In this document: positions 787 through 20,387 of the stretch, in pieces
Position numbering within the stretch: position 1 is the first letter of the stretch
Layout: every line of letters starts with the position of its first letter
Source: a virus
Length of the DNA: 23,699 nt
Virus record (IMG/VR): IMGVR_UViG_3300041411_000052
Coordinates: 1 to 23,699 of that record
Direction: 5' to 3' (one strand)
Notes under the pieces: generated by a model
Databases searched by the model: none
Told to the model about the DNA's origin: nothing
Seen by the model: only the letters and a program-made list of their open reading frames with translations
Translations under genes and position numbers: made by a program

Positions 787-1167
787 TTAGAAGAGCCTCG
801 GTTGACTAAGGTCAACGATCATGATATAAAGGCCAGCTTTCTTAGCCCGCTTCAACATATCTACAGAACCGGAGCTTACCCCATCCCAGATAAGGAGTAA
901 AGCGCCTTTTCCGCTCACCTTCGCATAATCAGCCATGCGCTGGTTCCGTTGGTTCGGTCCTCCGGCCCAACGTTCGCTAGGAAGGACCGGAAATTCTTTT
1001 ACAGGAATACTCGAAACGTCAGCCCAGTCCCGTCCTAGAAGGTCAACCCCTTCGGCCATCCCACAGACGACTTCGGTAACGTCGTTAGCGTGCCAGAATT
1101 CCTGACAGGCATCATAGACGGTCTTACGACAAGTAATTGACCGCGACCCGGCTACGATAGTAATCAT
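787..1167 (-). CDS. SLOG-domain (DUF2493, YspA-like) protein
   Basis: A 126-residue single-domain protein of the SLOG superfamily, DUF2493/YspA-like branch. Visible motifs in order: an N-terminal strand leading into GSRSIT (residues 7-12); the glycine turn CGMAEGVDLLGRDWA (35-49); GGPNQRNQRMA (69-79); and a late WDGVSSGS (94-101). This is a Rossmann-like fold that in other SLOG members binds nucleotide-related ligands. The ligand and role here are unknown. It is the first gene of the left minus-strand operon. Its RBS, AAAGGA, lies within the 1168-1183 interval and so overlaps the gp8 late promoter on the other strand. The family assignment is firm; a role in nucleotide metabolism or host interference is speculation. 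Confidence 0.8.
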   Translation of the reverse strand: MITIVAGSRSITCRKTVYDACQEFWHANDVTEVVCGMAEGVDLLGRDWADVSSIPVKEFPVLPSERWAGGPNQRNQRMADYAKVSGKGALLLIWDGVSSGSVDMLKRAKKAGLYIMIVDLSQPRLF

Positions 1168-1174
1168 CTAAATA
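1167..1174 (+). promoter_or_regulatory. Late promoter TCTAAATA upstream of gp8
   Basis: TCTAAATA lies about 50 bases before the gp8 start and reads toward it. It resembles the T4 late box TATAAATA with C at position 2. The same NCTAAATA octamer recurs in several other gaps before virion operons in this window. It overlaps the start region of the divergent minus-strand SLOG gene, so the two transcription units may interfere. Confidence 0.65.
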
Positions 1175-7781: not shown

Positions 7782-8332
7782 ATGAAGCACAAAGATGGTC
7801 GCTAGAAGATACATTTGAACACTGGCTAGAAAAATACAACTCTTTCCTCGATATCGCCGGGAATGAAATCAATTTTCGTTATCTGGATACTGAAACTGTT
7901 GGGCTGACTGTTGAATTCGGTCCGGGACAAATTCGTAACGGTTCTACCGTTGAGGATCTGACCGGGGCGACGTTGACTTTCCCAGCAGACTCCAGCCTAG
8001 TTGTTGGTGTATACAAAGTTCCGAACGACGTAGTTGATGTTCCATCGGAAATCGCAGTTTATGCGCTCGGTGATGTACCAGAGGACTTCTTTGTACCGCT
8101 CTATGCGTTCGTTACAGGACCAACCGGCATTACTACGTCCAAAGACCTCCGTACGCCTTTTTCTTATGGTACAGGCGGTAGCGCGGGCGCTGGTGCACTG
8201 ATGTTTTTCGATCAACACGTTATGCGCGATACGGTTGTTCCAACTTTGAAGAACGCCTTGAGCGTGGCCCCAATTGTTGACGAAGGGTTTACCGTGACCG
8301 TTTCTGACGGCTCGGAATGGGTGATTGTATAA
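7778..8332 (+). CDS. Putative virion protein (184 aa)
   Basis: It starts at 7778 in an ATGA overlap with the upstream gene, behind a clear AGGAGAG ribosome-binding site. The N-terminus is helical (EDTFEHWLEKYNSF); the rest alternates short beta strands with glycine-rich turns. It includes YGTGGSAGAGALMFF and ends VTVSDGSEWVIV, an ending often seen in baseplate or fibre components. I recognise no named family. Its TAA overlaps the ATG of gp13 by one base, so it is part of the baseplate/neck operon. A role as a fibre or baseplate accessory is inferred from context. Confidence 0.6.
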   Translation: MNEAQRWSLEDTFEHWLEKYNSFLDIAGNEINFRYLDTETVGLTVEFGPGQIRNGSTVEDLTGATLTFPADSSLVVGVYKVPNDVVDVPSEIAVYALGDVPEDFFVPLYAFVTGPTGITTSKDLRTPFSYGTGGSAGAGALMFFDQHVMRDTVVPTLKNALSVAPIVDEGFTVTVSDGSEWVIV

Positions 8333-9081
8333 TGGCCAAACCTAATAGCCGTCAAAGTTTTGGTGAGTATTGCTTACGGAAACTTGGTAAGCCGGTCATC
8401 AACATCAACGTAGAAGCGAGCCAAGTCTTAGACCGGATCGACGAAGCGCTTCAGGTTTACTCTGAGAAGCATTTCGACGCGACGGAAAAGGAGTGGATTG
8501 GATATCGGTTGACTTCCGAGGACATCATCAAAGGGTATATCACGACTCCCGACGATATCCTAGTGATCGACCAAATTCTTAGTATGGACGGCGTGTTCCA
8601 GTCGTACAACGATGACCCCGATTTCGGTTATCGTTATCAGTTGGTGATGGGGAGCTTTAGCCCGTTCGCCTCCTTGGATATCCTTTCGTACTATCTGAAC
8701 GTTAGTTACATTAACGAAATCAACGCGTTGATTAACGTTGATCCGACGTTCGAATACACCCGTCACAAGAACAAGTTGACCATCGCTCAGAACACGAAAG
8801 AAATGAAGGCCGGAAGTATCATTGGCCTACACGTAATGAAGATTATCAACCCGGACGAAAACCCTTACGTCTGGAACGACAAATGGCTAAAGGAATATGC
8901 CACCGCGTTGATTAAACGTCAATGGGGACTCAACATGAAGAAACATGGAGAGATTGCGTTGCTGGGTGGGATTACCGTTAACGGACAACAAATTTACGAC
9001 GAAGCGCTAACTGATATTGCTTCGTTGGAAGAAGAGTTAGATACAGTTTACCAGGAACCCATAAATTTTTTCATGGGTTAG
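8332..9081 (+). CDS. gp13: Neck protein, T4 gp13-like head completion
   Basis: A 249-residue homologue of T4 neck protein gp13 (309 residues), which with gp14 closes the filled head at the portal and makes the tail attachment site. Typical sequence near the start: SFGEYCLRKLGKPVININV and RIDEALQVYSEKHFDATE, followed by GYITTPDDILVIDQIL. The C-terminal half has WNDKWLKEYATALIKRQWG. The start is placed at the ATG at 8332, which overlaps the upstream stop by one base; an ATG at 8317 would add five residues and overlap further. The protein ends normally (EPINFFMG), so the endonuclease gene that follows has not truncated it. In T4, gp14 follows directly; here 1.8 kb separates them. Confidence 0.85.
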   Translation: MAKPNSRQSFGEYCLRKLGKPVININVEASQVLDRIDEALQVYSEKHFDATEKEWIGYRLTSEDIIKGYITTPDDILVIDQILSMDGVFQSYNDDPDFGYRYQLVMGSFSPFASLDILSYYLNVSYINEINALINVDPTFEYTRHKNKLTIAQNTKEMKAGSIIGLHVMKIINPDENPYVWNDKWLKEYATALIKRQWGLNMKKHGEIALLGGITVNGQQIYDEALTDIASLEEELDTVYQEPINFFMG

Positions 9082-9095: not shown

Positions 9096-9133
9096 AGAAA
9101 CCCTAAATAGTTATAATATTATTTGGGGTTTCT
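9096..9133 (+). promoter_or_regulatory. Long RBS-occluding hairpin in front of the HNH gene
   Basis: AGAAACCCTAAATAGT (9096-9111) pairs continuously with 9118-9133 over 16 positions (two G-T wobbles), with loop TATAAT (9112-9117). The 3' arm contains the GGGG ribosome-binding sequence (9125-9128), and the ATG (9135) begins one base after the stem. The late octamer CCTAAATA is inside the 5' arm. RNA from an upstream promoter would hide the start; RNA begun about six bases after the octamer would lack the 5' arm. This matches the arrangement known for T4 e, soc and I-TevI. Confidence 0.7.
9102..9109 (+). promoter_or_regulatory. Late promoter CCTAAATA for the HNH/lysis genes
   Basis: CCTAAATA lies 33 bases before the HNH start codon, embedded in the 5' arm of the long hairpin. 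By analogy with T4 late promoters, transcription would begin in or next to the loop, around 9115. Confidence 0.65.
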
Positions 9134-9134
9134 T

Positions 9135-9914
9135 ATGAATTACGAAACGATTTACAACAAGCTGATTGAAAGTAGGTTGAATCAGGATATACACGGGTAT
9201 TATGAAACTCATCATATACTTCCTAGATGCTTGGGCGGAACTGATGATGTTTCTAACCTAATCAAACTTACTGCTCGTGAACATCTGTTCGCTCATATTT
9301 TGCTAATGAAAATTTATCCAGATAATGTCGGACTTTCGTATGCCGTTAGGTGTATGTCTCTTAAAGGGATTGTAAATTCTAGAAAATATGAATTCGCCAG
9401 AATTCAATCTAGTAAGAATCAATCTGAACAATTTAAAGCCTTGTGGCAAGATCCAGATTACTTACAAAAACAAAGTTTTAGATCGACCGATGAATATAAA
9501 AACAAAGTTTCTCTTATGATGAAGGATTATTATTCTACAGATGAGGGGAAAGCTAACATTGAAATTGTTAGAGTTAAAATTACAGGGAAGGTCATTTCAG
9601 AAGAAACGAGATTAAAAATGAGCGAATCTTTAAAAGGAGTTTCTAAGCCAGAAGGATTCGGTGATAAGATTAGCGCTGCTAGAACTGGAATGAAATTTAC
9701 CGAAGAACATAAAGAAAATTTTCGAAAAGCTCGTACAGGAAAGGGTACTGGAGAACGAAACTCTATGTCGTCCGAAGAAAATCGAAGAAAACTTTCCGAG
9801 GCTAAAGTTGGCAGCAAAGCTGTATATTCAATAGACGGATCGCGACGGATCAAAAGGAAAGAAGAACTTTCACAATACCATCTTCGTGATGGAAAATATT
9901 TCGATTACGAGTAA
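9135..9914 (+). CDS. HNH homing endonuclease with NUMOD3 motifs
   Basis: A free-standing homing endonuclease of 259 residues. The HNH nuclease core is at residues 24-58: THHILPRCLGG followed by NLIKLTAREHLFAHILL, with the paired His at 26-27, Asn 41 and His 50/54 as likely metal and catalytic residues. Residues 148-228 carry three NUMOD3-type DNA-binding repeats: GKVISEETRLKMSESLKG, GMKFTEEHKENFRKARTG and a shorter SSEENRRKLSEAKVG. The gene is visibly richer in A+T than its neighbours and uses codons such as AGA and ATA that they use rarely, which fits horizontal acquisition. The start is the ATG at 9135; a TTG at 9123 lies inside the hairpin. It is inserted between gp13 and the endolysin, and both flanking genes are intact. 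Confidence 0.9.
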   Translation: MNYETIYNKLIESRLNQDIHGYYETHHILPRCLGGTDDVSNLIKLTAREHLFAHILLMKIYPDNVGLSYAVRCMSLKGIVNSRKYEFARIQSSKNQSEQFKALWQDPDYLQKQSFRSTDEYKNKVSLMMKDYYSTDEGKANIEIVRVKITGKVISEETRLKMSESLKGVSKPEGFGDKISAARTGMKFTEEHKENFRKARTGKGTGERNSMSSEENRRKLSEAKVGSKAVYSIDGSRRIKRKEELSQYHLRDGKYFDYE

Positions 9915-9919
9915 CAATA

Positions 9920-10441
9920 ATGCCAAAACTTACTCCGATAGTAAAGAGGAAACTTTTCAACTACCTAATCGGCGCCGGTGCTACTGCCGCTGTTGCGCTA
10001 AGTGGCACTACACTCATCGCGCCGAACGAAGGGTTGGTACTTGAAACTTATAGAGACGCCGTTGGTATCATTACCGCGTGCTACGGACACACAGGCCCAG
10101 AATTAAAAATGGGCATGAAGTTCACGCTCGACGAATGTAACATGATGCTTCTCGCTGACCTTAACAAACACAACAAAGAAATGCGTCGTTATGTTGCCGT
10201 ACCGTTGACGGAATACCAAGAAGCGGCGTTTACGTCCTTCGTGTATAACGTTGGGGTGGGTAATTGGAGAACGTCCACCATGCTGAAACTCTTGAACAAA
10301 GGCGATTATTTTGGCGCGTGTAAGCAATTGACGAGCTGGGTCTACGCTAAAGGCATCAAACTTAATGGACTTGTAACACGCCGGGGCATCGAAATGAATG
10401 CGTGCACCGGGAAACTGAATCTATATGCTGAGATAAAGTAA
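9920..10441 (+). CDS. SAR-type endolysin, GH24 phage lysozyme
   Basis: A 173-residue muramidase that hydrolyses the glycan strands of peptidoglycan at lysis. The GH24 catalytic triad is visible with T4-like spacing: Glu37 (PNEGL), Asp46 (YRDAVG) and Thr52 (ITACYGHT). The core continues with YQEAAFTSFVYNVGVGNW and GLVTRRGIEMNACTG. Residues 12-34 form a weakly hydrophobic Gly/Ala/Ser/Thr-rich segment (LIGAGATAAVALSGTTLIA) after a basic N-terminus and before the catalytic Glu. That is the signal-arrest-release design of phage 21 and P1 endolysins: sec-exported, held in the inner membrane, released on depolarisation. The start at 9920 is 5 bases after the HNH stop; the SD is weak. The putative holin gene follows after one base. 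Confidence 0.88.
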   Translation: MPKLTPIVKRKLFNYLIGAGATAAVALSGTTLIAPNEGLVLETYRDAVGIITACYGHTGPELKMGMKFTLDECNMMLLADLNKHNKEMRRYVAVPLTEYQEAAFTSFVYNVGVGNWRTSTMLKLLNKGDYFGACKQLTSWVYAKGIKLNGLVTRRGIEMNACTGKLNLYAEIK

Positions 10442-10442
10442 A

Positions 10443-10817
10443 ATGGCTACCGACAACAATAATAATAAAATAGATAGTATCATCGTCCAAAAACCTGCAG
10501 CGGTGTTGAAGTCGTATTCGGCCTTGACGCTTCTGGCGAACATTCTAATCTCTTTGAGCGCGGTTGGCTTCACGGCCATCGGTGCCCTTACGCAGATTGA
10601 TGTGGTTTACCTTGTAGGGATCATGTCGGTCCTGTCGATCTTCGGGTTTGCCGGAAGGTTCATCCAACAAGATATCTCAGGGACCGATAAAGAGGGTCCA
10701 ATGGGCTTCAAGGGGCTGTCTATCCGCTTTGTATGGTTTATCGAACGCTCGGTTAAGGGTAGTTGGGAAAAGCTCAAGGGCACGTTCCTAGGACTCTTTG
10801 GCAAAGACGCACAATAA
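10443..10817 (+). CDS. Small membrane protein, putative holin
   Basis: A 124-residue protein with two predicted transmembrane helices: residues about 24-46 (LTLLANILISLSAVGFTAIG) and 50-72 (VVYLVGIMSVLSIFGFAG). These are followed by RFIQQDI and a cytoplasmic-type basic tail (WFIERSVKGSWEKLKG). The second helix followed by an Arg-x-Ile-x-Gln stretch resembles small phage holins of the two-TM type. It lies one base after the endolysin stop, forming a lysis pair. With a SAR endolysin the expected partner would be a pinholin or canonical holin. The holin role rests on topology and position, not on a certain family match. Confidence 0.6.
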   Translation: MATDNNNNKIDSIIVQKPAAVLKSYSALTLLANILISLSAVGFTAIGALTQIDVVYLVGIMSVLSIFGFAGRFIQQDISGTDKEGPMGFKGLSIRFVWFIERSVKGSWEKLKGTFLGLFGKDAQ

Positions 10818-10834
10818 CACTACAACTATAAATC

Positions 10835-10842
10835 TCTAAATA
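10835..10842 (+). promoter_or_regulatory. Late promoter TCTAAATA upstream of gp14
   Basis: TCTAAATA ends at 10842, the first base of the 5' arm of the gp14 leader hairpin. A start about six bases downstream (near 10848) would fall inside that arm. Confidence 0.65.
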
Positions 10843-10869
10843 GCCTATAGAACTTAAATTTTATAGGCT
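10842..10869 (+). promoter_or_regulatory. Leader hairpin covering the gp14 translation start region
   Basis: AGCCTATAGAA (10842-10852) pairs with 10859-10869 (TTTTATAGGCT) through 11 pairs, one of them G-T, with loop CTTAAA. The only SD-like bases before gp14, ATAGG at 10863-10867, are in the 3' arm. The gp14 ATG is at 10877. The late octamer abuts the 5' arm, so late transcripts should start within the arm and lose most of the stem. Same logic as the HNH leader. Confidence 0.6.
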
Positions 10870-16085: not shown

Positions 16086-16613
16086 ATGGCTTCAATTTCC
16101 GAGTTCAAAAGCGCCCTCAAAGGAGGGGGCGCCCGCTCTAACCGTTTCGAGACTCTTATTGAGTTTCCTTCGTTTGCAGCGACTTCAGACACAATCCGTA
16201 AAACTCCTTTTTTGTGCAGCTCTACCCAGCTTCCCGGTTCCAACCTCGGTGTAATTGAACATCCATTCCGTGGACGTACTCTGAAACTAGCGGGCGACCG
16301 TGTATTTGACGAATGGACCGTATCTTTCGTTAACGACCTGGACTTTGATCTGCGTAACGCGTTCGAACTATGGCATAACGCTATTAACGGTTACAACTCT
16401 AACACCGGTTTGGTAGTTCCAGATGACTATATGGCTAACGTAAGCGTATATCAACTAGATAACCAAGACCGTCGCGTTAAGTCGTACACCATGAAACTGG
16501 CCTGGCCTAGCGTTGTAGCGCCTATCGAACTCGCTCAGGATTCGAACGACCAAATTGAACTTTTCGAAGTGACGTTTGTTTATTCTGATATGAGTAACGG
16601 TTCTTCTACTTAA
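16086..16613 (+). CDS. gp19: Tail tube protein, T4 gp19-like
   Basis: A 175-residue inner tube subunit (T4 gp19 is 163). Typical stretches are FKSALKGGGARSNRFETLIE, LCSSTQLPGSNLGVIEHPF, RGRTLKLAGDRVFDEWTVSF, DFDLRNAFELWHNAINGY and ELFEVTFVYSD. Together they mark the beta-barrel tube fold that polymerises under the sheath. The gene lies 4 bases after gp18, with a strong AAGGAG site, and is followed by a hairpin that probably ends or stabilises the gp18-gp19 message. Confidence 0.93.
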   Translation: MASISEFKSALKGGGARSNRFETLIEFPSFAATSDTIRKTPFLCSSTQLPGSNLGVIEHPFRGRTLKLAGDRVFDEWTVSFVNDLDFDLRNAFELWHNAINGYNSNTGLVVPDDYMANVSVYQLDNQDRRVKSYTMKLAWPSVVAPIELAQDSNDQIELFEVTFVYSDMSNGSST

Positions 16614-16623
16614 TAGTGACATA

Positions 16624-16649
16624 TGAACGGCTCTTTTTAGGGCCGTTCA
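16624..16649 (+). terminator. Hairpin after gp19
   Basis: A 10-pair stem (16624-16633 with 16640-16649; one G-T), with core GAACGGC/GCCGTTC and loop TTTTTA. The following bases (ATTGTTCCC) form a poor U-tract, so it may be a weak terminator or a 3'-end stabiliser for the abundant sheath/tube mRNA. A late promoter follows 7 bases later. Confidence 0.55.
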
Positions 16650-16656
16650 ATTGTTC

Positions 16657-16664
16657 CCTAAATA
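16657..16664 (+). promoter_or_regulatory. Late promoter CCTAAATA upstream of gp20
   Basis: CCTAAATA lies 34 bases before the portal gene. It overlaps the 5' arm of a possible leader hairpin: 16658-16667 with 16677-16686, nine pairs and one A-A mismatch. The 3' arm of that hairpin reaches into the AAGAG ribosome-binding bases. The predicted start, near 16670, is in the loop. Confidence 0.62.
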
Positions 16665-18896: not shown

Positions 18897-19529
18897 ATGA
18901 CCAAGTTACTTATTGAAACAAGCCACGAAGTTGAAATGCTTACCGAAGATACTGGTTCGGGCAAACAATTTTACATCGAAGGTATTTTTGCTCAGTCGGA
19001 AGTTATCAACGGCAATGGGCGTATGTACGAGAAGGCCGTGATGAATAACGCGGTTGATCGTTATATTAGCGAGTTTGTGTCTAAGCGCCGTGCCCTAGGT
19101 GAGCTCAATCACCCGGACCGCCCTTTTGCTGACCCAGCCATGGCTTCGATTCTTATTAAAGAAATGAAGTGGATGCCGAATGGTCGAGACGTTTACGGTA
19201 AAGCTCTCGTAATGAACACCCCTCAAGGTCAGATCGTTAAAGGTTTGATGGAAAGCGGTTTCAATATGGGCGTGTCTACTCGTGGACTCGGAACTGTAAA
19301 AGAATCTCGGGGCATCAAGTATGTCCAGAAAGATTTTTTCATGACCGCTGTAGACTGTGTTGATTTACCTTCTGGGCCTGATTGTTACGTTAACCAACTT
19401 CGCGAGTCTACCTGGGCGCAGAGCAATGGAGTTTGGGTTCCAATCAACGAAAGCGGCGAACAAGTTAACGAAGATATGTTCATGACTCAGTTTGAGAAGT
19501 GGATGAAATCGGTATCTAAAAACGTTTGA
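18897..19529 (+). CDS. gp21: Prohead maturation protease, T4 gp21-like
   Basis: A 210-residue serine protease (T4 gp21 is 212) of the herpesvirus-assemblin-like fold, which acts inside the prohead to process scaffold and capsid proteins. The catalytic His is probably His72 in GELNHPDRP. The nucleophile is probably Ser127 in NMGVSTRGLG, and an acidic residue in AVDCVDLPSG (Asp153 or Asp156) completes the site. The N-terminus YIEGIFAQSEVINGNGRMY is typical of the family. It starts 13 bases after the basic core gene. A hairpin overlaps its stop, and a TATAAATA late promoter follows immediately. Confidence 0.92.
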   Translation: MTKLLIETSHEVEMLTEDTGSGKQFYIEGIFAQSEVINGNGRMYEKAVMNNAVDRYISEFVSKRRALGELNHPDRPFADPAMASILIKEMKWMPNGRDVYGKALVMNTPQGQIVKGLMESGFNMGVSTRGLGTVKESRGIKYVQKDFFMTAVDCVDLPSGPDCYVNQLRESTWAQSNGVWVPINESGEQVNEDMFMTQFEKWMKSVSKNV

Positions 19530-19539
19530 AATTCAAACG
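19523..19539 (+). promoter_or_regulatory. Palindrome over gp21 stop codon
   Basis: CGTTTGAA (19523-19530) and TTCAAACG (19532-19539) form a near-perfect palindrome with one central base. As RNA it can make a 6-bp stem with a 5-base loop. The gp21 TGA (19527-19529) is inside it, and TATAAATA begins two bases later. No U-run, so it is not a typical terminator. Confidence 0.4.
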
Positions 19540-19590: not shown

Positions 19591-20355
19591 ATGTCCGATC
19601 TACAATCTCTCTTTGAAGGCGCCGAACTTTCGGTTGAATTCAAAGAAAAGGCTGAAGTGATTTTTGCGTCTGTTGTTGAAAGCAAAGTCACCGAAGCTAC
19701 CGCTGCCATTGAATTGAAACTTCAAGAAGAGTTCAACGCCAAAGTTGAAACTAAACTTCAAGAACTCGAAGAAGCTTCTGATGCTTACATCGCCGAAGAA
19801 GTTATGCCGTCGGTTGACAAGTACCTGACCGCTGCTGCCGCTGAATGGCTTAAAGAGAACACCGTGGCTCTGGAAGCTGCTGGTAAAGTTTCGCTCGCTG
19901 AATCCTTCCTTACCGGTCTAACTGGTCTGGCTGCCGATCACCGTCTGACTCTTCCAGAAGGCCAAGATCAACTAGTTGTTCTACAAACTAAAGTTGACGA
20001 GCTTGACGAAAAGGCAAAAGGACTTCTGGACGCTAACATTGAACTCCAGAAAGAAAACATTGAATACAAAAAATCTCAAGTTGTTGTAGGTGTTGTTGCC
20101 GCTCTGAGTGAAGCTCAAAAAGAAAAGTTGGAAACTCCTTTCTCTAAAGTTGAATTCAAAGACGAAGCACAATACGCAGCCGCTTTGAAATCTTTGGCTG
20201 AATCTTATTTTCCAGTTGGTGGCGAAGTAATTGACGAAGCTGCTAAACTCGAAAAAGAAAAACAAGATAAGGCAGCCGCAAAAGCCTTGTCTGAAGTTAA
20301 TCTTTCAAGAGAAGATGCATACTACAAAGCTATTGGTAATAAGCTGAACTCGTAA
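19591..20355 (+). CDS. gp22: Prohead scaffold core protein, T4 gp22-like
   Basis: A 254-residue scaffold protein (T4 gp22 is 269), directly between protease and major capsid as in T4. It is Glu/Lys/Ala-rich and largely helical, with long coiled-coil-like stretches (EATAAIELKLQEEFNAKVET and LLDANIELQKENIEYKK). Several L-x-E or I-x-E triplets (such as LQE and LKE) fit the cleavage preference of the T4 protease, consistent with degradation during maturation. The C-terminus is REDAYYKAIGNKLNS. It has its own TATAAATA promoter, and its stop lies in the loop of an 8-bp hairpin. Confidence 0.88.
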   Translation: MSDLQSLFEGAELSVEFKEKAEVIFASVVESKVTEATAAIELKLQEEFNAKVETKLQELEEASDAYIAEEVMPSVDKYLTAAAAEWLKENTVALEAAGKVSLAESFLTGLTGLAADHRLTLPEGQDQLVVLQTKVDELDEKAKGLLDANIELQKENIEYKKSQVVVGVVAALSEAQKEKLETPFSKVEFKDEAQYAAALKSLAESYFPVGGEVIDEAAKLEKEKQDKAAAKALSEVNLSREDAYYKAIGNKLNS

Positions 20356-20363
20356 GAGTTCAG
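20344..20363 (+). terminator. Stop-codon hairpin at end of gp22
   Basis: CTGAACTC (20344-20351) pairs with GAGTTCAG (20356-20363) around a GTAA tetraloop that contains the gp22 TAA (20353-20355). There is no U-tract, since TTCAAAAACAAC follows. It is more likely an mRNA processing or stability element than an intrinsic terminator. The gp23 promoter lies 17 bases downstream. Confidence 0.5.
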
Positions 20364-20379
20364 TTCAAAAACAACTTAC

Positions 20380-20387
20380 TATAAATA
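20380..20387 (+). promoter_or_regulatory. Late promoter TATAAATA upstream of gp23
   Basis: An exact T4 late consensus octamer, 45 bases before the major capsid gene, which carries a GGAG ribosome-binding site (TCGGAGTAAC). It is the expected strongest late promoter. Confidence 0.78.

Follow-up and report, generated by a model that had tools for sequence, protein, structure and literature searches.

The mobE gene of phage Aeh1 encodes a free-standing HNH homing endonuclease and is gated by a hairpin (Gibb and Edgell 2007, 2009, as reviewed in PMC2988022). Together with T4 e and T4 segB it is listed as hairpin-gated in reviews (PMC2988022, PMC3014915). Gated endonuclease genes are commonly located in early or middle transcription units (PMC2988022), a setting that the mechanism does not require. 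The late octamers of T4 occupy positions -13 to -6 relative to the transcription start (+1), and CTAAATA has been reported as the late motif of Aeh1 (PMC1524935). Here, we compare with these systems a hairpin located directly upstream of an HNH gene in an uncultivated virus.

Genomic context of the HNH gene

The window, that is, the whole 23.7 kb stretch of viral DNA which was analysed, is a fragment of a T4-like phage genome. Among named phages, Pseudomonas phage pf16 is the closest, with 73% identity in the major capsid protein and ~71% in the DNA of gp13. The plus strand carries, in this order, gp13, the HNH endonuclease, a lysozyme, a small uncharacterised protein, gp14 and further structural genes:

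8332..9081, plus strand: gp13 neck protein (head-tail adaptor), upstream of the HNH gene (phrog_211, 1.5e-37)
9135..9914, plus strand: putative free-standing HNH homing endonuclease, MobE-like, 259 aa (phrog_655 homing endonuclease, 1.6e-48; NUMOD3)
9920..10441, plus strand: lysozyme (endolysin), beginning 5 nt past the HNH stop codon (PF00959, 6e-40)
10443..10817, plus strand: small protein, 124 aa, possible holin (only match phrog_21126, of unknown function)

The profile match and the conserved residues of the HNH region, HH...P...N...H, which are invariant in the alignment and profile set (A1), assign the HNH gene to the MobE-like family phrog_655 and point to a homing endonuclease as the product of 9135–9914. 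Identity to MobE of phiAS5 is 31.7%. The small protein encoded at 10443–10817 looks membrane-bound by eye and is a candidate holin or spanin. The gp13 gene stops at 9081 and the HNH gene begins with the ATG at 9135–9137; the hairpin lies in the gap between them.

Late promoters of the window

The CTAAATA motif is found six times in the window, always on the plus strand and never on the minus strand. Since all six copies end 25–52 nt upstream of plus-strand starts (1227, 2614, 9135, 10877, 14486 and 16699), CTAAATA appears to be a genuine late-promoter motif in this phage. Two copies matter for the HNH gene:

1167..1174, plus strand: late octamer TCTAAATA, head of the plus-strand unit running into gp13 (motif scan; minus-strand ORFs lie to its left)
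9102..9109, plus strand: late octamer CCTAAATA, within the 5' arm of the hairpin, one of the six CTAAATA copies

The first-pass annotation described the latter octamer as non-T4-like. Such an octamer is not unusual, CTAAATA having been reported as a late motif for Aeh1; the window also contains a perfect TATAAATA ahead of two genes (start codons at 19591 and 20432).

The plus-strand unit that includes gp13 encodes structural genes, starts at the late octamer at 1167 and adjoins minus-strand ORFs, which left of 1167 match the annotation of pf16. A scan of the window for sigma-70-type promoters gave 22 matches, below the shuffle mean of 27.7. Because the unit starts at a late octamer, with minus-strand ORFs beyond it and few sigma-70-type matches, transcripts entering from gp13 are expected to be mostly late as well, although other, earlier promoter types are possible. 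The separation of early from late expression initially proposed for the hairpin would thus find little room at this locus.

Hairpins also lie directly 5' of several late octamers elsewhere in the window (approximately 2549–2571, 16612–16657, 19523–19539 and 20356–20380), for example GAACGGCTCTTTTTAGGGCCGTTC ahead of CCTAAATA. They are perhaps terminators insulating successive late units.

Layout and rarity of the hairpin

The hairpin sequence between gp13 and the HNH gene reads AGAAACCCTAAATAGT (9096–9111), TATAAT (9112–9117), ATTATTTGGGGTTTCT (9118–9133), T9134 and ATG (9135–9137):

9096..9111, plus strand: 5' arm of the hairpin, 16 of 16 bases paired with 9118–9133
9112..9117, plus strand: loop TATAAT, holding the predicted late start A9115 (the -13 to -6 rule applied to the octamer at 9102–9109)
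9118..9133, plus strand: 3' arm, carrying the ribosome-binding bases (sequence and folding)
9125..9129, plus strand: Shine-Dalgarno-like GGGGT (anti-Shine-Dalgarno duplex of -5.4 kcal/mol, inside the range of the other genes of the phage)

The stem agrees with its first description in length, position, loop and the inclusion of the ribosome-binding site (RBS) in the 3' arm. All 16 pairs form without interruption, two of them being G-U, and the octamer lies in the 5' arm as claimed. The 121-nt region folds at -33.8 kcal/mol (z = -5.8), and none of 200 shuffles is as stable. On both strands of the window this is the longest uninterrupted stem, the runner-up being 14 bp, and when the whole window was dinucleotide-shuffled 20 times, the longest plus-strand stem measured 10–15 bp. 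Stem length by itself is unusual, not extreme. The hairpin ranks only about sixth among the distinct places of the window by raw folding energy; this measure of surprise was dropped in favour of stem length and the cost of opening the RBS, which discriminate better. The opening cost, defined as the energy needed to unpair 19 bases from -16 through the start codon, is 19.2 kcal/mol for the HNH leader, a value reached by none of 500 shuffles of the leader (mean 5.6, sd 2.7, maximum 15.6). Just three of 125 de-duplicated leaders with a late octamer cost more to open. What is unusual is the length of the hairpin and above all its placement, not its stability.

Opening costs on read-through and late transcripts

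When the T4 geometry is applied to CCTAAATA, +1 is predicted at A9115, inside the loop, and the predicted late transcript, judged from the octamer position and the -13 to -6 rule, lacks the entire 5' arm. On read-through RNA the RBS is predicted to pair with upstream sequence, at an opening cost of 19.2 kcal/mol, which falls to 4.6 on the predicted late transcript; these computed energies take no account of co-transcriptional folding or proteins. Folding thus predicts that the read-through RNA is shut and the late-start RNA open, in line with what had been proposed. The gated genes used as controls behave likewise: 14.5 to 4.1 (upstream octamer) or 1.6 (downstream octamer) for T4 e, 17.4 to 5.7 for T4 segB and 14.4 to 4.4 for Aeh1 mobE. 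The logic of T4 e, soc and I-TevI, to which the hairpin was originally likened, is therefore reproduced for e, but not for soc, which is cited as a switch and changes only from 7.5 to 7.2; the metric thus misses some published cases.

Survey of endonuclease and structural leaders

HNH relatives, GIY-YIG relatives and gp13 loci were gathered, yielding 352 de-duplicated leaders. An [AC]TAAATA motif is present 8–60 nt before the start in 51 endonuclease and 74 structural leaders. A leader was counted as a switch if the opening cost fell by at least 5 kcal/mol from the long to the late RNA; where one leader contained several octamers, the one with the largest fall was kept, in both groups alike. 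Switches are found in 33 of the 51 endonuclease leaders versus 10 of the 74 structural ones (Fisher p = 3.6e-9, to be taken as a guide, since de-duplication was by shared 8-mers and the leaders are not fully independent). The remaining 18 octamer-bearing endonuclease leaders show no switch. Endonuclease leaders devoid of an octamer resemble those of structural genes (their median opening cost is 5.9, and 17% pass when given a pseudo-start), and many HNH homologues have neither hairpin nor octamer. The survey indicates that the predicted switch is common among endonucleases adjoining a late promoter. No description of this survey-level pattern was found in the open-licence literature.

Two loci deserve separate mention. 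One contig (L129) contains three homing endonuclease genes, one GIY-YIG-like and two HNH, within less than 5 kb (at 970, 1836 and 3694), all three preceded by a late octamer and an RBS hairpin. The stem is common to both HNH leaders, which suggests that the leader moves or is duplicated together with the gene. In another (L080, at 5001), it is the leader of gp13 that buries the start with unusual strength, at 24.8 kcal/mol as against 5.4 after a TATAAATA; here a structural gene behaves like the endonuclease leaders.

Co-variation of the arms and the gp13 junction

Close relatives of the window leader were sought in phage records and none was found, the matches lying within genes only. Co-variation was accordingly judged on distant leaders, no near relative with the same arms having been found. 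In a MAFFT alignment of the GIY-YIG leaders the octamer and the Shine-Dalgarno sequence are anchored and the arms are gapped; for this reason, a half-swap test, in which the 5' half of one leader is exchanged for that of another, was used in place of per-pair counts. The mean barrier of endonuclease leaders drops from 10.2 to 5.9 upon swapping (p = 7.6e-8), significantly for GIY-YIG and HNH leaders each, versus 6.4 to 5.7 for structural leaders (p = 0.27).

The nearest HNH orthologue (L111; 39% identity over 257 residues) is located between gp13 and a small protein preceding gp14. Its leader differs from that of the window in sequence and arms and has the same layout, with TATAAATA and a start-closing stem (13.5 to 2.1 kcal/mol). 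Chimeric leaders made from the two drop to 6.6 and 6.3. Stem sequences vary widely between leaders, as exemplified by AATTGTATCTT/AGGAGATACAATT (L221), TAAATACTCCTTATA/TATAAGGAGTATTTA (L198) and TGCACTTC/GGAGTGCA (L167). Relatives whose arms vary without keeping their pairing had been named by the first-pass annotation as evidence that would speak against a switch; instead, distant relatives keep the pairing while the arms change.

One design recurs, TAAATACTC...GGAGTATTTA, in which the spacer is paired with the octamer, and the Shine-Dalgarno sequence with the bases just past the octamer. It is present in four GIY-YIG genes (L039, L198, L209, L210) and in the two HNH genes of L129, and nearly so in T4 segB. 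Of 16 octamer-bearing endonuclease genes that immediately follow gp13, 15 pass (2 HNH, the rest GIY-YIG). As predicted by folding, the switch is the usual arrangement for octamer-bearing endonucleases at the gp13 site, across two unrelated enzyme families.

Just past gp13 in two further contigs (L023 and L020), a long inverted repeat, CTAAGCGTTGCTAA...TTAGCAACGCTTAG in L023, is seen ahead of gp14, with a late-type octamer between its arms as judged by eye; in both it lies well upstream of the start codon.

Proposed mechanism

We consider it likely that the hairpin is a switch for private expression of the homing endonuclease. Polymerase coming from gp13 would produce RNA in which 9096–9111 pairs with 9118–9133, burying the RBS and leaving the HNH gene untranslated. 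Polymerase recruited by the late promoter CCTAAATA would start near A9115 and omit the whole 5' arm; the resulting RNA could not fold the stem, and its RBS would be free. The gp13 stop codon lies 14 nt ahead of the stem, so that a terminating gp13 ribosome should just fail to melt it. The main effect would be to cut the HNH gene off from the strong structural-gene transcript, so that its own promoter sets its level. As upstream transcription is also expected to be late, insulation is probably this main effect, rather than separation of early from late expression, and an insulator fixing the dose of a DNA-cutting enzyme probably fits better than an early/late timer. The sequences, the predicted pairing and its rarity, the distribution of the promoter motif and the co-variation of arms among relatives are results of this analysis, whereas we infer how strong the repression is, the insulating role and a start at 9115.

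More generally, we suggest tentatively, and with slightly more doubt than conviction, that a single leader design is reached convergently by free-standing homing endonucleases of any enzyme family that enter the late structural operons of T4-like phages. In this design the TAAATA of the octamer and the bases following it would pair with the Shine-Dalgarno sequence and the spacer, serving for insulation from strong late read-through and dose setting, not for early silencing.

Alternative explanations

The stem might act as an intrinsic terminator or attenuator after gp13, at which read-through RNA ends and from which late RNA lacking the 5' arm escapes. Such a terminator predicts no HNH protein from read-through and therefore the same outcome as the RNA switch, reached by a different step. 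The A-rich 5' flank, the CCC/GGGG core and TTTCTTAT as a U-tract, with six T in the eight bases after GGGG, agree with it, and the hairpin of gp14 is likewise followed by TTTTC. However, the stem contains few G-C pairs, being rich in A/T, and is absent from the terminator scan list, and relatives of the same layout usually have one to four T in the eight bases before the ATG, burial of the RBS being what persists. We regard termination as unlikely. By the usual definition of an intrinsic terminator, a G+C-rich stem plus a U-tract, the stem does not qualify, TTTCTTAT after GGGG being borderline.

The hairpin of gp14 can itself be read in both ways:

10835..10869, plus strand: gp14 leader, octamer TCTAAATA followed by an 11-bp hairpin (10842–10852/10859–10869) across the predicted start (folding)

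The opening cost of this leader is 12.1 kcal/mol on long RNA and 2.9 on the late transcript, and one of 500 shuffles reaches it. The hairpin, which holds TATAGG and precedes TTTTC, may serve as an RBS switch or as a terminator escaped by late transcripts.

It is equally improbable that the switch mainly times lysis, as in T4 e, whose hairpin is of the same kind, with the lysozyme coupled to the HNH gene and held down until the late promoter fires. Coupling of lysozyme translation to that of the HNH gene is possible, because the lysozyme starts 5 nt past the HNH stop codon, its Shine-Dalgarno sequence is weak (-2.5 kcal/mol) and it lacks its own late octamer, CTAAATA being absent between 9110 and 10835. 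A search of IMG/VR for relatives of the lysozyme gave three candidate stretches, none of them confirmed. The role in lysis timing suggested by the first-pass annotation is at odds with L111, in which the HNH gene occupies the same site and retains a comparable hairpin, yet no lysozyme lies between gp13 and gp14; the GIY-YIG cases at this junction likewise keep the hairpin and lack a lysozyme behind it. Moreover, RNA arriving from upstream should itself be late in the window. In our reading, lysis timing is a possible side effect of the hairpin, not its purpose.

The inverted repeat could also work as a DNA operator, bound over the promoter by the endonuclease or another protein, possibly alongside the RNA switch. 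The palindrome does cover the promoter, and I-TevI represses itself through a binding site over its own late promoter (PMC2988022). Yet the palindrome sequence is not kept between the window and L111, although the proteins are orthologous, and a DNA operator does not predict burial of the RBS, which is kept in two unrelated enzyme families. We therefore hold this reading to be very unlikely.

A chance palindrome around the promoter, or one that arises where divergent late promoters overlap, is the least credible reading: raw energy ranks the hairpin only about sixth in the window and Escherichia phage UPEC03 has a comparable repeat between divergent genes, with CCTAAATA on both strands, but none of the 500 leader shuffles reaches the barrier, relatives show enrichment and arm co-variation, and the minus strand of the window is devoid of CTAAATA. 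In UPEC03 (L107, ~1150–1201), the two octamers lie between the divergent gene 53 and an HNH gene and form a perfect 8-bp octamer/anti-octamer stem over the HNH RBS, a bidirectional late promoter that may gate translation too. A divergent-promoter palindrome fits UPEC03, and possibly the gp53/gp4 junctions of two other contigs (L100, L102), not the window.

Comparison with known systems

As judged by folding, the window leader is a further case of the known hairpin-gated late endonucleases of the mobE/segB/I-TevI type. The novelty claimed for a switch on a free-standing HNH endonuclease does not stand: Aeh1 mobE has the same layout with CTAAATA (PMC2988022), and T4 segB is also free-standing. 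The window gene and mobE belong to the same protein family (the A1 profile matches mobE), and both have a C-type late octamer in the 5' half of the hairpin (TCTAAATA in mobE, CCTAAATA in the window), nearly the same gap from octamer to ATG (26 and 25 nt, respectively) and an RBS buried on the long RNA. They differ in location, mobE being in the nrd region and the window gene among structural genes, and in the unrelated sequences of their stems; furthermore, the mobE case was tested at the bench, whereas that of the window is a prediction from sequence and folding. T4 segB, I-TevI, I-TevII and I-TevIII similarly have an RBS hairpin on upstream transcripts that is relieved by a late promoter (PMC2988022). 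These are, however, GIY-YIG or intron-encoded enzymes in early or middle units, as opposed to an HNH gene in a unit expected to be late. With T4 e, for which ~100-fold repression has been reported (PMC3014915), the window shares a late octamer within an arm of the RBS hairpin, but T4 gates the lysozyme itself, whereas here the HNH gene is gated and the lysozyme comes after. GIY-YIG endonucleases at the gp13/gp14 junction of uncultivated T4-like phages (L036, L039, L198, L210, L221 and others) share the site, the late octamer and the RBS hairpin, and are unrelated to the window gene in enzyme family and stem sequence.

With this one case, an uncultivated pf16-like phage joins a regulatory class that is already known; the survey carries more weight. 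In it, the predicted switch recurs in two unrelated enzyme families inserted at one and the same site, and does so in a setting where late transcription is expected from upstream, a pattern that calls for a dose-control reading beside the textbook early/late one.
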